A stretch of 64,000 nt of DNA from an uncultured Pelagibacteraceae bacterium (GTDB lineage: Bacteria > Pseudomonadota > Alphaproteobacteria > Pelagibacterales > Pelagibacteraceae), in NCBI GenBank assembly GCA_902614835.1, contig CACMMU010000002.1, positions 1-64,000 of the forward strand, in the 5' to 3' direction. Position numbers and translations under genes: made by a program. Below the pieces are notes generated by a model. It had not been told where the DNA came from. It saw nothing but the letters and a program-made list of their open reading frames with translations, and ran no database searches. Below are positions 7,720 through 30,444 of this stretch, in pieces. Within the stretch, counting starts at the first letter, position 1. Every line of letters starts with the position of its first letter.

Positions 7720-8714
7720 TTTACCATGTATTTTTTTGCCAAATGCTCAAGTAAATCAATATGATCTTTGCCGTCGTTGAGACATGGCACAACATCAAAA
7801 TTTTTTCCACCGCTGCTTAAGAAACTTTCCCTGCCCTGAATAGATATTTCCTCTAAAGTTTCAACGCAATCAGATGAAAAACCCGGGCATATTACTAAAA
7901 TATTTTTCTTTCCTTCTTTGGGTAAACTTTCCAAAGTTTTATCGGTGTAGGGCTTTAGCCATTCCTGAGGTCCAAATCGAGACTGGAAGGTTGTTTGGAT
8001 AGGGATTTTAGTAAATTTCTCTGACAAAAGTCTTGATGTTTTTTGGCAGTAGCAGTGATAAGGGTCTCCTTTGTCAAAATATTTTTTTGGTATACCGTGG
8101 TAAGAGGCCACTATTAAATCTGGTTTCCAATTTATCTCTGAAATTTTCTTATTCAAACTTTTTTCTAAAGCGGTGATGTAAAGTGGCTCAGACTCATAAT
8201 GAGGTATAATTTGCAGACTAGGTTGCCACCTCATGTCAATCAAAGATCTAAAAACTTCATCGCAAACAGTAGCGGTCGTTGCGGCTGCATATTGTGGGTA
8301 CAAGGGAATAACGATTATTCTTTCACAACCATTGTTTTGAAGTTTTTTCATCTTACTTCTTATGCTTGGTGAACCATATCTCATGGCAAAATCTGTTATA
8401 ACTTTGTCGTTGTCTAATTTTTCGCTAAGTTTTTTTGTTTGCATCTCGGTATAATGTCTAAGTGGAGATACATTTTTATCTTTCATCCATATTTCTTTAT
8501 AAGCTTTGGCAGTTTTTGAAGGACGAAAGTTTAAAATAAAAACATTTAAAATAATCTTCCATAAAATTGGGTTCAATTCTATAACTCTTTTATCAGATAA
8601 AAATTCTTTTAAATATTTTCTTATATCCCACCAGCTTGTGGAGTCCGGTGTTCCTAAATTTACTAGTAACAAGCCTGTTCTTCCATAATTAATTTTAGGA
8701 TGATCTTCTTTCAT
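7716..8714 (-). CDS. hemH: Ferrochelatase
   Basis: This 332-residue enzyme inserts Fe2+ into protoporphyrin IX to make heme. Diagnostic motifs are LLVNLGTPD near the N-terminus, the metal-binding histidine region IVASYHGIPKKYFDKGDPYH, and the acidic SDCVETLEEI motif near the C-terminus. It overlaps hemE upstream and hemJ downstream by 4 bases each, indicating translational coupling. No membrane anchor is evident. Confidence 0.97.
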   Translation of the reverse strand: MKEDHPKINYGRTGLLLVNLGTPDSTSWWDIRKYLKEFLSDKRVIELNPILWKIILNVFILNFRPSKTAKAYKEIWMKDKNVSPLRHYTEMQTKKLSEKLDNDKVITDFAMRYGSPSIRSKMKKLQNNGCERIIVIPLYPQYAAATTATVCDEVFRSLIDMRWQPSLQIIPHYESEPLYITALEKSLNKKISEINWKPDLIVASYHGIPKKYFDKGDPYHCYCQKTSRLLSEKFTKIPIQTTFQSRFGPQEWLKPYTDKTLESLPKEGKKNILVICPGFSSDCVETLEEISIQGRESFLSSGGKNFDVVPCLNDGKDHIDLLEHLAKKYMVK

Positions 8715-9718
8715 TTGTTTCTTCTCACAAGTTCGGTTACATAAGTTATTGTCTCTGGCTTTGTCTCAGGAAGAACTCCATGACCCAGATTAAAAACATA
8801 AGGTGATCCTGAAAAAATTTCCAAATATTTTTTAACTTCTTTCTCGATAACCTCGTAATCTTTTAAAAGAATTTTTGGATCCAGGCCTCCTTGAACTGAA
8901 ACATTTTTTAAATTTTTTTTAATCCACATCGGATCTATATCATAATCTATATTAACACAGCTGGGTTTAACGGCTGAGCAGAAATCTAAATAATTTTTTC
9001 CTATACCTTTAGGAAAACATATTATGGGTATTTTTGACGATTTAAATTTATTTACTATTCTATAGGTTGGATCATAACAATATTTTTTTAAATAACTGTC
9101 TGGAAGCAAACCTGCCCAAGAATCAAAAATTTGGATAACAGTTGCACCAGATTTAATTTGATTTTCTATGTGTGAACAAATGGTTTCTTCTATTTTTTTT
9201 AATAATTTATCTCCAGAGTGCTGCTCGTTCATAATATTTTTTATATCAAAATCTTTTTTAGGTGATTTTTTATTCAACATGTAAACCAATATAGTCCATG
9301 GTGCCCCGACAAAACCGATTATATCTTTGCCTGTTGCTTCTTCTTTGACAGCTTGTATTGCGTTATATACGGGTTGCATGCTGGCTATAAATTCATTTTT
9401 TTTGGTTTTTATAACTTTATCTATATTTAGATTTCCTAGAACAGGTCCCTCACCTTTTATAAACTCTACGCTCTGCCCCAAACCATAAGGTATCATTAGT
9501 ATATCTGAGAAAATAATAGCTGCATCTAAATCAAATCTTTTAATTGGTTGTAAGGTAATTTCCTTAACAAGCTTAGTATCAAGACAGAGTTTAATAAAAT
9601 CTTGATTTTGCTTTCTTATTTCTCTGAATTCTGGCAAATATCTTCCAGCCTGTCTCATAAACCATATTGGTATATAAGATGAGTTTTTATTTATTATACA
9701 ATCAGATAGTTTATTCAT
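8711..9718 (-). CDS. hemE: Uroporphyrinogen decarboxylase
   Basis: HemE decarboxylates the four acetate side chains of uroporphyrinogen III to give coproporphyrinogen III. The 335-residue sequence contains the signature WFMRQAGRYLPEFR, the DLDAAIIFSDILMIP segment with the catalytic aspartate, and the C-terminal FNLGHGVLPETKPE. It is the first gene of the leftward heme operon and borders the AT-rich gap proposed as the origin. In alphaproteobacteria, including Caulobacter, hemE classically flanks oriC. Confidence 0.97.
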   Translation of the reverse strand: MNKLSDCIINKNSSYIPIWFMRQAGRYLPEFREIRKQNQDFIKLCLDTKLVKEITLQPIKRFDLDAAIIFSDILMIPYGLGQSVEFIKGEGPVLGNLNIDKVIKTKKNEFIASMQPVYNAIQAVKEEATGKDIIGFVGAPWTILVYMLNKKSPKKDFDIKNIMNEQHSGDKLLKKIEETICSHIENQIKSGATVIQIFDSWAGLLPDSYLKKYCYDPTYRIVNKFKSSKIPIICFPKGIGKNYLDFCSAVKPSCVNIDYDIDPMWIKKNLKNVSVQGGLDPKILLKDYEVIEKEVKKYLEIFSGSPYVFNLGHGVLPETKPETITYVTELVRRNK

Positions 9719-9990
9719 TTAATAATAGTATAAATTTATATTTTAATAGATGTAATAGGTCATGTTAGTTAGTGAAAATTGGACAAATTTCATTTTATTT
9801 ACAGCCTTAATGTATTAAAAAACCTTATAAAACTATCCTTTTCTTTGATATACACAATGTTAATTATTAAATATAAAATTATAAACATAATACAAACTGT
9901 TAAGTATTTGTTAATTAAAGTTAATAAAAAATCCATTTTATGATTATTCCTTGGTATTTATTAATTATACAAAACTAATTCACAGACTTA
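9719..9990. other. oriC: Putative chromosomal replication origin (oriC)
   Basis: This 272-base AT-rich gap lies between divergent hemE and ppsR, the typical alphaproteobacterial origin position. Three sites match the DnaA box TTATNCACA at 8 of 9 positions, all on the + strand: 9848-9856 (ATATACACA), 9965-9973 (TTATACAAA) and 9976-9984 (TAATTCACA). A TTAA-N7-TTAA motif, the shape of a CtrA site, lies at 9900-9914. The stretch between the boxes is almost pure A/T and could serve as an unwinding element. The gap also carries the promoters of hemE and ppsR. parS sites 19 kb away agree with origin proximity. No box is perfect and no GC-skew calculation was possible. Confidence 0.65.
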
Positions 9991-10812
9991 ATGACAAATA
10001 AATATCAAATTTACTTAATATCAGATTCAACCGGTGAGACGCTTGATAGAACTTTTCTGGCACTACAATCTCAGTTTGCAAATTTTAATTATGAAAAGAA
10101 AGAATATGTTTTCATCAGAACCAATCAACAAATTGATAAAGTTATTAAAGAATGCGCAGGAAAAGAAAGTGTAATAATACTTTATACAATTGTTGATACT
10201 AAATTAGCTAAATTTTTAGACACAGAATGCAAAAAAAACAACATCCCTTGTTTTGGGGTTTTGGGAAATCTAATACTAAGTTTTTCAAAGCTCCTAAACC
10301 AAAAAGCAACCCACAAACCAAGCGCTCAACACGTTTTAGACGAAGATTATTATAAGAGGATCGAAGCCATACAATTTACAATGTCCCATGATGATGGAAA
10401 AAAAAATGAAGATATACCTAAGTCAGACATAGTTTTGCTGGGAGTTAGCAGAACAAGCAAAACACCCACTTCTATTTATCTGGCTAACCGAGGTTATAAA
10501 ACACTAAATATACCCCTTGTGTTAGAGCAAAATATTCCATTTCTTCTAGAGGAACCAAACATAAATTTGTGTGTGGTCGGTCTGTTCGCTGACGCTGAAA
10601 GATTAGCAGAAGTAAGAAAAACTAGAGTGAATGTAAACACATCTGTAGATCTGAAAACATATACTGATGTTGAAAAAATTAGAGCTGAGGTTGAAAGTTC
10701 AAAAAAAATGTTTAAAAAATTCAATTGGCCCTCAATAGATGTTACCAGAAGGTCTGTAGAGGAGACGGCCGCATCTATAATAAAAATATACGAGATTAAA
10801 AAAAACAAATGA
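9991..10812 (+). CDS. ppsR: Pyruvate,phosphate dikinase/PEP synthetase regulatory protein (PPSR, DUF299)
   Basis: This 273-residue protein is a bifunctional kinase/pyrophosphorylase that switches PPDK or PEP synthetase off and on by reversible threonine phosphorylation. Visible marks are the N-terminal IYLISDSTGETLDRT, the P-loop GVSRTSKTPTS (about residues 151-161) followed by YLANRGYKTLNIPLV, and the C-terminal DVTRRSVEETAASI. Which of the two enzymes it targets cannot be told here. It heads the rightward ppsR-maf-aroE-coaE-dnaQ run beside the origin, each gene overlapping the next by a few bases. Confidence 0.93.
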   Translation: MTNKYQIYLISDSTGETLDRTFLALQSQFANFNYEKKEYVFIRTNQQIDKVIKECAGKESVIILYTIVDTKLAKFLDTECKKNNIPCFGVLGNLILSFSKLLNQKATHKPSAQHVLDEDYYKRIEAIQFTMSHDDGKKNEDIPKSDIVLLGVSRTSKTPTSIYLANRGYKTLNIPLVLEQNIPFLLEEPNINLCVVGLFADAERLAEVRKTRVNVNTSVDLKTYTDVEKIRAEVESSKKMFKKFNWPSIDVTRRSVEETAASIIKIYEIKKNK

Positions 10813-28159: not shown

Positions 28160-28792
28160 ATGGATCCTAGCGAATCCAACGCTAAATCAAAGTTAATTTT
28201 AAGAGAAAAATTAAATTTTAACGAGGAAAAACTGAATAAAATAGATTTATTTGTAAATAATGTTTTAAATTATAATAAAAAGTATAATTTAATATCTAGT
28301 AGTACCGAAAATGATATTTGGTGCAGGCACGTTCTAGATTCTGCACAATTAGTAAAATACATCGATAGCAATAAATTTAAAAGTCTATCAGATTTAGGAA
28401 CAGGGGCAGGATTTCCTGGAATTATACTGTCTATTTTTTTTAGTGATGTTATCTCGTTTCACGTGAAACTTTATGAGAAGTCTAATGTTAAAATTGACTT
28501 TTTGAAGGAGCAGAAACAAAAACTGAACTTAAATAATGTTTCATTATATGATAATGATTATCAGTCGCATAAACTAAGTAGTGATTACTTTGTGTTCAGA
28601 GCTTTTAAAAAATTGCATGAAATACTGCGTATTTCACGTGAAACAATTACAGGACCCCATAAATTGATAGTCATGATGGGAAAGAGTGCACAGGATCAAT
28701 TAAATAAAGCTTCAAAGGCTGATATTAATAAGTATAAGCTTGTACCAAGTATTACTAGCAAAGATTCTAAAATACTTTTGTTAGATGCTTAA
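28160..28792 (+). CDS. rsmG: 16S rRNA (guanine527-N7)-methyltransferase RsmG (GidB)
   Basis: RsmG makes m7G527 in 16S rRNA using SAM. The 210-residue protein has NKKYNLISSSTENDIWCRHVLDS and the SAM-binding SLSDLGTGAGFPGIILSI motif, followed by YEKSNVKIDFLKE. The C-terminal region (DSKILLLDA) is short. Two palindromic parS sites are embedded in its coding sequence at codon stretches for SFHVKL and ISRET, so this gene doubles as the chromosomal centromere region. Confidence 0.94.
   Translation: MDPSESNAKSKLILREKLNFNEEKLNKIDLFVNNVLNYNKKYNLISSSTENDIWCRHVLDSAQLVKYIDSNKFKSLSDLGTGAGFPGIILSIFFSDVISFHVKLYEKSNVKIDFLKEQKQKLNLNNVSLYDNDYQSHKLSSDYFVFRAFKKLHEILRISRETITGPHKLIVMMGKSAQDQLNKASKADINKYKLVPSITSKDSKILLLDA
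28455..28470. other. parS: parS centromere site 1 (within rsmG)
   Basis: The 16-base sequence CGTTTCACGTGAAACT has the full 14-base core palindrome GTTTCACGTGAAAC of the bacterial parS consensus TGTTTCACGTGAAACA and differs only at the two outermost bases. It lies inside rsmG, just upstream of parA-parB. ParB binding here would nucleate the partition complex. Confidence 0.92.
28630..28645. other. parS: parS centromere site 2 (within rsmG)
   Basis: TATTTCACGTGAAACA matches the parS consensus TGTTTCACGTGAAACA at 15 of 16 positions. It lies 175 bases from the first site, also in the rsmG coding sequence. Paired parS sites near parAB and within about 20 kb of the proposed origin are normal for chromosomal partition systems. 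Confidence 0.92.
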
Positions 28793-28801
28793 AAATAAAT
28801 T

Positions 28802-29602
28802 GTGGATACAACTGTAATATCTGTAATAAATCAAAAGGGCGGAGTTGGCAAAACTACGACAGCGATTAATTTGGCCACCGCATTAGCTAAAAAAGGAAAA
28901 AAAATTTTAGTCATAGATCTTGATCCACAAGGCAATGCCACAACAGGATTAGGGAAGTCAAATAATGATGAAGAGAAAAGTATTTATAATGTTCTTATAG
29001 GCAAGACAAAGGTTGAAAATGCAATTCAAAAAAGTGCCGTTGCTGGATTGGATCTCATCGGGTCAAATGTCAATTTATCTGGCTTAGAGGTAGAGACGGC
29101 TAATGATGCCAACAGAGCATTTCTTTTGAGAGAAATTTTAACTAATAAAGACAAGTCACATTTTAATAAATACGAGAACATATTTATCGATTGCCCTCCT
29201 TCTTTAAGCTTGCTTACTGTTATGTCACTAGTTTCAGCTAATGAGCTATTAATACCACTCCAAACAGAGTTTTTTGCATTAGAGGGAATCACACAATTAG
29301 TAAAAACTATTGATCGTATTAAAGTAAATCTAAACCCAACCCTTAATATTAGGGGTGTCCTACTTACCATGTTTGACAAAAGAAATAAGCTGTCATCTCA
29401 GGTGGACTCCGAAGCAAGAAAACATTTTAAAGATAAGGTATATAAAACCGTTGTACCAAGAAATGTTAGACTATCCGAGGCTCCTTCACATGGTATGCCA
29501 TGTTTGATTTATGATAAAAATTGCTCAGGTAGTAAATCTTATCTAAATTTGGCAGATGAGTTTATCAAGCAAAGGGAACAATCAATAGGGAGCGCAGCAT
29601 GA
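28802..29602 (+). CDS. parA: Chromosome partitioning ATPase ParA
   Basis: ParA is the deviant-Walker ATPase that moves ParB-parS complexes. The 266-residue protein has VINQKGGVGKTTTAINLATAL (Walker A'), the DLDPQGNATTGLG switch, FIDCPPSLSLLTVMSL (Walker B region) and the C-terminal PRNVRLSEAPSHGMP typical of Soj/ParA chromosomal members. The start is GTG, 9 bases after the rsmG stop. It overlaps parB by 4 bases. Confidence 0.97.
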   Translation: MDTTVISVINQKGGVGKTTTAINLATALAKKGKKILVIDLDPQGNATTGLGKSNNDEEKSIYNVLIGKTKVENAIQKSAVAGLDLIGSNVNLSGLEVETANDANRAFLLREILTNKDKSHFNKYENIFIDCPPSLSLLTVMSLVSANELLIPLQTEFFALEGITQLVKTIDRIKVNLNPTLNIRGVLLTMFDKRNKLSSQVDSEARKHFKDKVYKTVVPRNVRLSEAPSHGMPCLIYDKNCSGSKSYLNLADEFIKQREQSIGSAA

Positions 29603-30444
29603 GCGCAGCAAAAAAAGGTCTAGGTAGAGGATTGTCAGCATTGTTTGGTGATATTGAAAATAAGTCAACCTCTGTTGAAGTACAGATAAATAAAGTTCCC
29701 ATAGCAAACCTGCAACGCAACAAGTATCAGCCCAGAACCGTATTTGATGAGGAAAAAATTTCTGAGCTTTCATCGTCTATAAAAGAAAATGGTATGATAC
29801 AGCCAATTGCTGTTAGACCCAATAAGTACGAACCCGGGAATTATGAAATAGTTGCAGGTGAAAGAAGATGGTTAGCTGCACAAAGAGCCGGTTTGAACGA
29901 AGTACCGGTAATTCTTCTCAACATTGATGATCAAAAGAGTTTAGAAATTGCAATAGTTGAAAATATACAAAGAGAAAATTTGAATGTTATTGAAGAAGCC
30001 AAGGGTTACCAAAGATTAGTAAAAGAATTTGGCTATGATCACGAAAAGATTTCAAAATTCATGTCAAAAAGCAGAAGTCACGTAAGTAACACTTTAAGAT
30101 TGCTCAACCTACCAGAAGATATCATCGGACTGATCGAGGAAGGGAAATTAACTGCCGGTCAAGCTCGCCCTTTAATAGGAATGCCAAATGCTTCAGAAGT
30201 GGCGGAAAATATAGTTAAAAAGAAGGTCGCCGCAAGAGATGTAGAGTCTTTAGCAAGAAAAAAAAGCGGCAAAAATCAAAAAAAAATTGACGATCCAAAT
30301 ATCACCTTCGTAAGAAATGAACTTGAAAGCAAACTTGGTCTAAATGTTGAAATTTTAAATAAAAAAAATAATTCTGGAAAAATTATTATTAAGTATAAAT
30401 CTTTAGAACAGTTTGAGCTTATTTCAAAATTGCTTAAGAGGTAG
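29599..30444 (+). CDS. parB: Chromosome partitioning protein ParB
   Basis: ParB binds parS and spreads as a CTP-dependent clamp. The 281-residue protein begins KKGLGRGLSALFGD (ParA-stimulating N-terminus), has the CTP-binding motifs MIQPIAVRPN and GERRWLAAQRAG and IVENIQRENLNVIEEA, the helix-turn-helix EKISKFMSKSRSHVSNTLRLL, and a C-terminal dimerisation domain. Two matching parS sites occur in the preceding rsmG gene. Its end overlaps the convergent holA by 11 bases. Confidence 0.97.
   Translation: MSAAKKGLGRGLSALFGDIENKSTSVEVQINKVPIANLQRNKYQPRTVFDEEKISELSSSIKENGMIQPIAVRPNKYEPGNYEIVAGERRWLAAQRAGLNEVPVILLNIDDQKSLEIAIVENIQRENLNVIEEAKGYQRLVKEFGYDHEKISKFMSKSRSHVSNTLRLLNLPEDIIGLIEEGKLTAGQARPLIGMPNASEVAENIVKKKVAARDVESLARKKSGKNQKKIDDPNITFVRNELESKLGLNVEILNKKNNSGKIIIKYKSLEQFELISKLLKR

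Follow-up and report, generated by a model that had tools for sequence, protein, structure and literature searches.

A putative replication origin between hemE and ppsR in a SAR11 bacterium and its relatives

In Caulobacter, parS lies close to the replication origin, and dnaA is not adjacent to it. The gene pair hemE/COG1806 is the published boundary of the origin in both Caulobacter and Rickettsia, an arrangement inferred to be the ancestral state (PMC1914354); an initial annotation of the DNA studied here likewise noted that hemE-proximal origins occur in Caulobacter and its relatives. The origin of Caulobacter crescentus (Cori) is an AT-rich intergenic region of more than 400 bp with DnaA boxes and five CtrA sites, and the origins of Rickettsia prowazekii and R. 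typhi (~384 bp, 82% AT) have few DnaA boxes, together with reported CtrA and IHF sites (PMC1914354). Closer to hand, oriC of Candidatus Pelagibacter ubique HTCC1062, a member of the same family as the genome considered here, is described as marked by hand on a map, in a passage that gives neither its location nor its elements (PMC4033161). A literature search for a described SAR11 hemE origin returned none, though one may still exist.

The DNA analyzed here (the window) comprises bases 1–64,000 of a 112,455-bp contig, C2, from an oceanic SAR11 bacterium (Pelagibacteraceae) with an 858-kb genome assembly in 38 contigs that is 79% complete. Single-cell genomes of Pelagibacteraceae are the nearest relatives with a name. 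At positions 9719–9990, a gap of 272 bp separates the divergent genes hemE (uroporphyrinogen decarboxylase; 8711–9718, minus strand; TIGR01464, 343.8 bits, above cut-off) and ppsR (COG1806/DUF299 kinase-pyrophosphorylase; 9991–10812, plus strand; NF003742, 303 bits, above cut-off). The AT-rich, 272-base gap between divergent genes is exactly as first annotated, and the flanking genes had been named correctly: the order is rho-hemJ-hemH-hemE, gap, ppsR-maf-aroE-coaE-dnaQ, followed by secB on the opposite strand. The initial annotation also proposed that the gap is oriC. This proposal gains support from conservation of the candidate DnaA boxes, from skew in the best-behaved relative, from the position of parS, from the survival of boxes and a conserved block where hemE has been lost, and from the published boundary pair. 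Taken as a whole, the best explanation is that the gap between hemE and ppsR is very probably the single chromosomal origin, still putative, of this SAR11 bacterium.

Most of the criteria for oriC set out by Ioannidis et al. 2007 (criteria a–g; PMC1914354) describe this gap. Its boundary genes are homologous to the hemE and ppsR pair common to Caulobacter and Rickettsia (criterion a), and at 82% AT it exceeds the 69% of the contig (criterion e); the corresponding GC contents are 18% and 30.7%. The resemblance to Cori extends to both boundary genes, an AT-rich intergenic location and candidate DnaA boxes, but the SAR11 gap spans ~272 bp rather than more than 400, and its boxes are mostly imperfect. 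With the phylogenetically distant Rickettsia origins it shares the boundary genes, an AT content of 82% and the small number of DnaA boxes, although it is shorter. As in Caulobacter, parS is nearby and dnaA is not adjacent, the latter lying ~70 kb from the gap on the same contig (79973–81361 of C2).

The candidate DnaA boxes number five, each matching TTATNCACA at 8 of 9 bases and each on the plus strand. Three such boxes on a single strand had been annotated; the strand bias stands, and the count was too low. Dinucleotide shuffles of the gap contain a mean of 0.84 matches and reach at least five in 0.05% of cases (n = 2,000, P ~0.0005), and none of the 2,000 places at least five on one strand. 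Window-wide, these matches are not enriched (79 observed versus 91 expected), so the signal is their clustering in the gap, not the motif itself. The gap is the densest 290-bp interval of the 112,455-bp contig for 8-of-9 matches (criterion d), and it ranks first in a small sample of 44 AT-matched intervals. Counting against an origin, there is no 9-of-9 match to TTATNCACA in the window's own gap.

We compared 22 loci of the genus, including that of the window, and 96 further gaps of the family, for a total of 118, some of them drawn from two collections in which the same genome may recur. The layout of hemE, gap and ppsR is seen in 22 of 22 genus loci, with gaps of 271–277 bp, and lengths run from 263 to 289 bp over all 118 intact gaps, within the 200–1,000 bp of criterion b. 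The mean number of boxes per gap is 4.4 in the genus (0.84 expected) and 3.7 in the 96 other family gaps (0.77 expected). Genuine boxes had been expected to recur in close relatives, and four of the five predicted 8-of-9 boxes do hold their position and orientation in the genus, with exact matches in some relatives (criterion c). Across the genus, predicted box A (TTATTTACA, 9795–9803, plus strand) usually reads TTATCTACA, with at most one mismatch to TTATNCACA in 19 of 22 members. Predicted box B (ATATACACA, 9848–9856, plus strand), which in relatives reads TTATACACA or TTATGCACA, is exact in 11 of 22 and has one mismatch in 11 of 22. Predicted box C (TTATAAACA, 9879–9887, plus strand; mostly TTATAAACA or TTATTAACA in the genus) has at most one mismatch in 13 of 22, and predicted box D (TAATTCACA, 9976–9984, plus strand; TTATCCACA in several relatives), which ends 6 bp ahead of the ppsR start, is exact in five and has one mismatch in eight of 22. 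The remaining box-like 9-mer, TTATACAAA (9965–9973, plus strand), is not conserved (at most one mismatch in two of 22 members) and is probably due to chance. By base identity, boxes A and B stand above most of the gap, C is moderate and D is barely above average, in a ranking made inside the gap.

At 9751–9770, a 20-bp stretch that is no DnaA box ranks among the best conserved parts of the genus gaps (mean pairwise identity 0.90). Within it lies the block TAATAGGTCATGTT (9753–9766, plus strand); taken over 9751–9771 the block reads TGTAATAGGTCATGTTAGTTA and is likewise among the best-conserved parts. A block-like motif occurs in 90 of 118 gaps, versus 4.7 expected. A motif of a different kind, found in most family gaps, is an array of TGTT direct repeats spaced 11 and then 10 bp apart. 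In the window it lies at 9898–9923 (plus strand), includes TTAAGTATTTGTTAA and has AGTT as its third copy; TGTT-N7-TGTT is present in 80 of 118 gaps, versus 1.8 expected. Both motifs were picked after viewing the alignment, so that their enrichment is partly circular, though the effect is large. The expectation for the array, like those for the CtrA and IHF motifs considered below, comes from single-base shuffles, a weaker control than dinucleotide shuffles. On the opposite strand each TGTT of the array reads AACA, the bases that close the DnaA box at its 3' side, and the array may consist of low-affinity DnaA sites. The TGTT repeats at 9898–9923 also resemble CtrA sites without matching them.

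Could the gap be nothing more than a conserved two-way promoter for hemE and ppsR, its box-like 9-mers reflecting chance in AT-rich sequence or sites for transcription factors? In favor of this, a divergent gene pair requires promoters, the AT content is very high here, and the single best conserved stretch, at 9751–9770, is not a DnaA box. Yet the boxes exceed dinucleotide shuffles in the window and, on average, in the other gaps, and skew and parS, discussed below, indicate the same place. Genomes without hemE also speak against this reading. Absence of hemE beside ppsR appeared in ten genomes, was an artefact of the search motif in eight, and is real only in G032 and G033 (loci L051 and L052), which belong to one SAR11 genus. 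(Two loci without a ppsR match at first were found on rechecking to have both hemE and ppsR; the hemE matches of G034, at locus L049, fall in two frames, from a frameshift or mis-assembly, and those of the related G035, at L050, in a single frame.) In G032 and G033, hemE, hemH and hemJ are all absent beside ppsR and rho adjoins instead, and the only candidate for hemE elsewhere is a 27%–29% identical decarboxylase-family protein, which suggests that late haem synthesis genes have been lost.

The gap itself is still there in both genomes, at ~353 bp. It carries TTATAAACA at −183 and −14 from ppsR, the latter near the position of box D, where boxes A and D of the window lie at −196 and −15, and a TAGG...ATGTT block at −228 (−230 in the window), with an exact CATGTT in G033 and AATGTT in G032. 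Since boxes and block persist at matching distances from ppsR without hemE, these elements do not serve hemE, and a promoter as the sole function of the gap is very unlikely. In the genus without hemE, the address of the putative origin is set by the gap and ppsR, not by hemE.

Because the window's own genome is fragmented, we used complete relatives for skew; that of the window or of contig C2 alone gave no clear signal and is uninformative. One relative, G038, was read whole with one stretch masked, and G041, G031 and G034 were sampled. A two-arm model was fitted, with support taken as lying within 2 log-likelihood units, and the explained variance was modest (0.07–0.29). In G041 the best skew-derived origin, from both GC and AT, is at 1,156 kb and the gap is at 1,155 kb, with sampling coarser than 1 kb. 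G038, whose gap is at 604.8 kb, reaches its lowest cumulative GC skew 32 kb away at 636.6 kb and its highest about half-way round; the skew is weak (R2 0.09), and the gap is inside the support interval (−1.05 for GC, −0.68 for AT). The gap of G031 is at the edge of support for GC (−2.01), with AT uninformative, and in G034 the gap is rejected for GC (−9.7), the fit lying at ~656 kb and the gap at 359 kb, which counts against oriC. The skew minimum predicted by the initial annotation, looked for in these relatives, was thus borne out in G041, agreed within error in G038, was marginal in G031 and failed in G034; the GC-skew shift of criterion g holds in relatives only, best in G041 and within error in G038.

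These data bear on a second reading, in which the true origin lies elsewhere within a few tens of kilobases, for example close to the G038 skew minimum at 636 kb, with the gap simply forming part of the origin-proximal domain. The 32-kb offset in G038 and a box cluster there at 625.6 kb favor it. Other 290-bp intervals of that genome equal or exceed the gap in loose box matches, which counts against oriC at the gap, and for TTATNMACA with one mismatch the gap is among the top four intervals and is not the unique maximum. The G038 clusters at 555 and 625 kb were set aside as mainly coding sequence. With the 625.6-kb cluster mostly coding, the gap within the support interval of G038, the skew-derived origin of G041 within 1 kb of the gap, if at coarser sampling, and boundary genes that are those of known origins, we regard an origin merely near the gap as extremely unlikely.

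A location of parS near oriC is described as established for most bacteria (PMC7022226). We searched 15 genomes for the parS consensus TGTTTCACGTGAAACA with at most two mismatches, and in 15 of 15 the nearest site is 7–33 kb from the gap: 7–10 kb in G036, G037, G038, G039, G041, G056 and G057, 17–20 kb in G031, G032, G033, G034, G003 and G015, and 33 kb in G019. Shared gene order ties parS to the gap, so these 15 genomes are not independent evidence, and a few of them have a second, weaker parS elsewhere. In the window, the nearest parS is 18.6–18.8 kb from the gap, beside parAB. Two parS-like sites lie in rsmG, CGTTTCACGTGAAACT (28455–28470, two mismatches) and, just ahead of parA, TATTTCACGTGAAACA (28630–28645, one mismatch). 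The parA gene (28802–29602, plus strand) sits between rsmG and parB and has NCBIfam ParA-family matches below cut-offs; parB (29599–30444, plus strand) matches TIGR00180 at 190.6 bits, above cut-off. That the gap is an ancestral origin whose sites are kept by inertia while some SAR11 lineages, such as G034 with its skew fit at ~656 kb rather than 359 kb, use another is scarcely credible, given that G034, despite its failed skew test, still has an exact parS at a distance of 18.6 kb from the gap, and that divergence has left the length of the gap and its boxes in place. The discord between skew and parS in G034 may reflect a recent inversion, which would distort skew.

Where Cori has five CtrA sites, the SAR11 genomes lack a CtrA match above cut-off and CtrA-like sites in the genus are near chance. 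None of 15 genomes has a protein above the 350-bit cut-off of the CtrA family model NF045991 (best 148 bits; the top match in G038 is PhoB), and when 14 control genomes were searched, a single one scored above it, presumably that of Caulobacter. TTAA-N7-TTAA occurs in the genus gaps at 0.23 exact copies versus 0.17 expected, and at 3.4 versus 2.5 with one mismatch (single-base shuffles). The window gap has one exact CtrA-like site, TTAAGTATTTGTTAA at 9900; control by CtrA, suggested by that site, was ruled out on the near-chance frequency in the genus and the lack of a CtrA above cut-off. A modest excess family-wide (0.53 versus 0.20 expected, single-base shuffles) may stem from the TGTT array. 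For the IHF motif WATCAANNNNTTR, there is one 1-mismatch match in the window gap, and the genus mean is 2.7 versus 1.9 expected (single-base shuffles). The CtrA sites reported for Rickettsia origins are not supported in the SAR11 gap, in which an IHF site like those reported for them is at most a candidate. Lacking CtrA features, the gap is classed as an alphaproteobacterial hemE/COG1806 origin that is not CtrA-controlled. Apart from the missing CtrA, an oriC at hemE/ppsR is the expected find and a well-supported one.

If the gap fires as the chromosomal origin, DnaA would bind the spaced, mostly imperfect boxes A–D on one strand and probably also the helically phased, weaker TGTT/AACA sites. 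It would then oligomerise, open the very AT-rich duplex and load the helicase; forks would exit through hemE and ppsR, and ParB at parS ~19 kb away would segregate the new origins. More tentatively, and with somewhat less than even confidence, we suggest that SAR11 has kept the ancestral hemE/ppsR address and lost CtrA, with initiation controlled through lineage-specific elements close to the DnaA boxes, namely the TAATAGGTCATGTT block and the helically phased TGTT array, which either DnaA by itself or another regulator would recognize.

With its gene address conserved, an origin of this kind could be located even in fragmented genomes and would allow growth rates in nature to be estimated from peak-to-trough coverage. 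It would also offer a small, apparently CtrA-free origin to compare with that of Caulobacter, in which CtrA blocks initiation.
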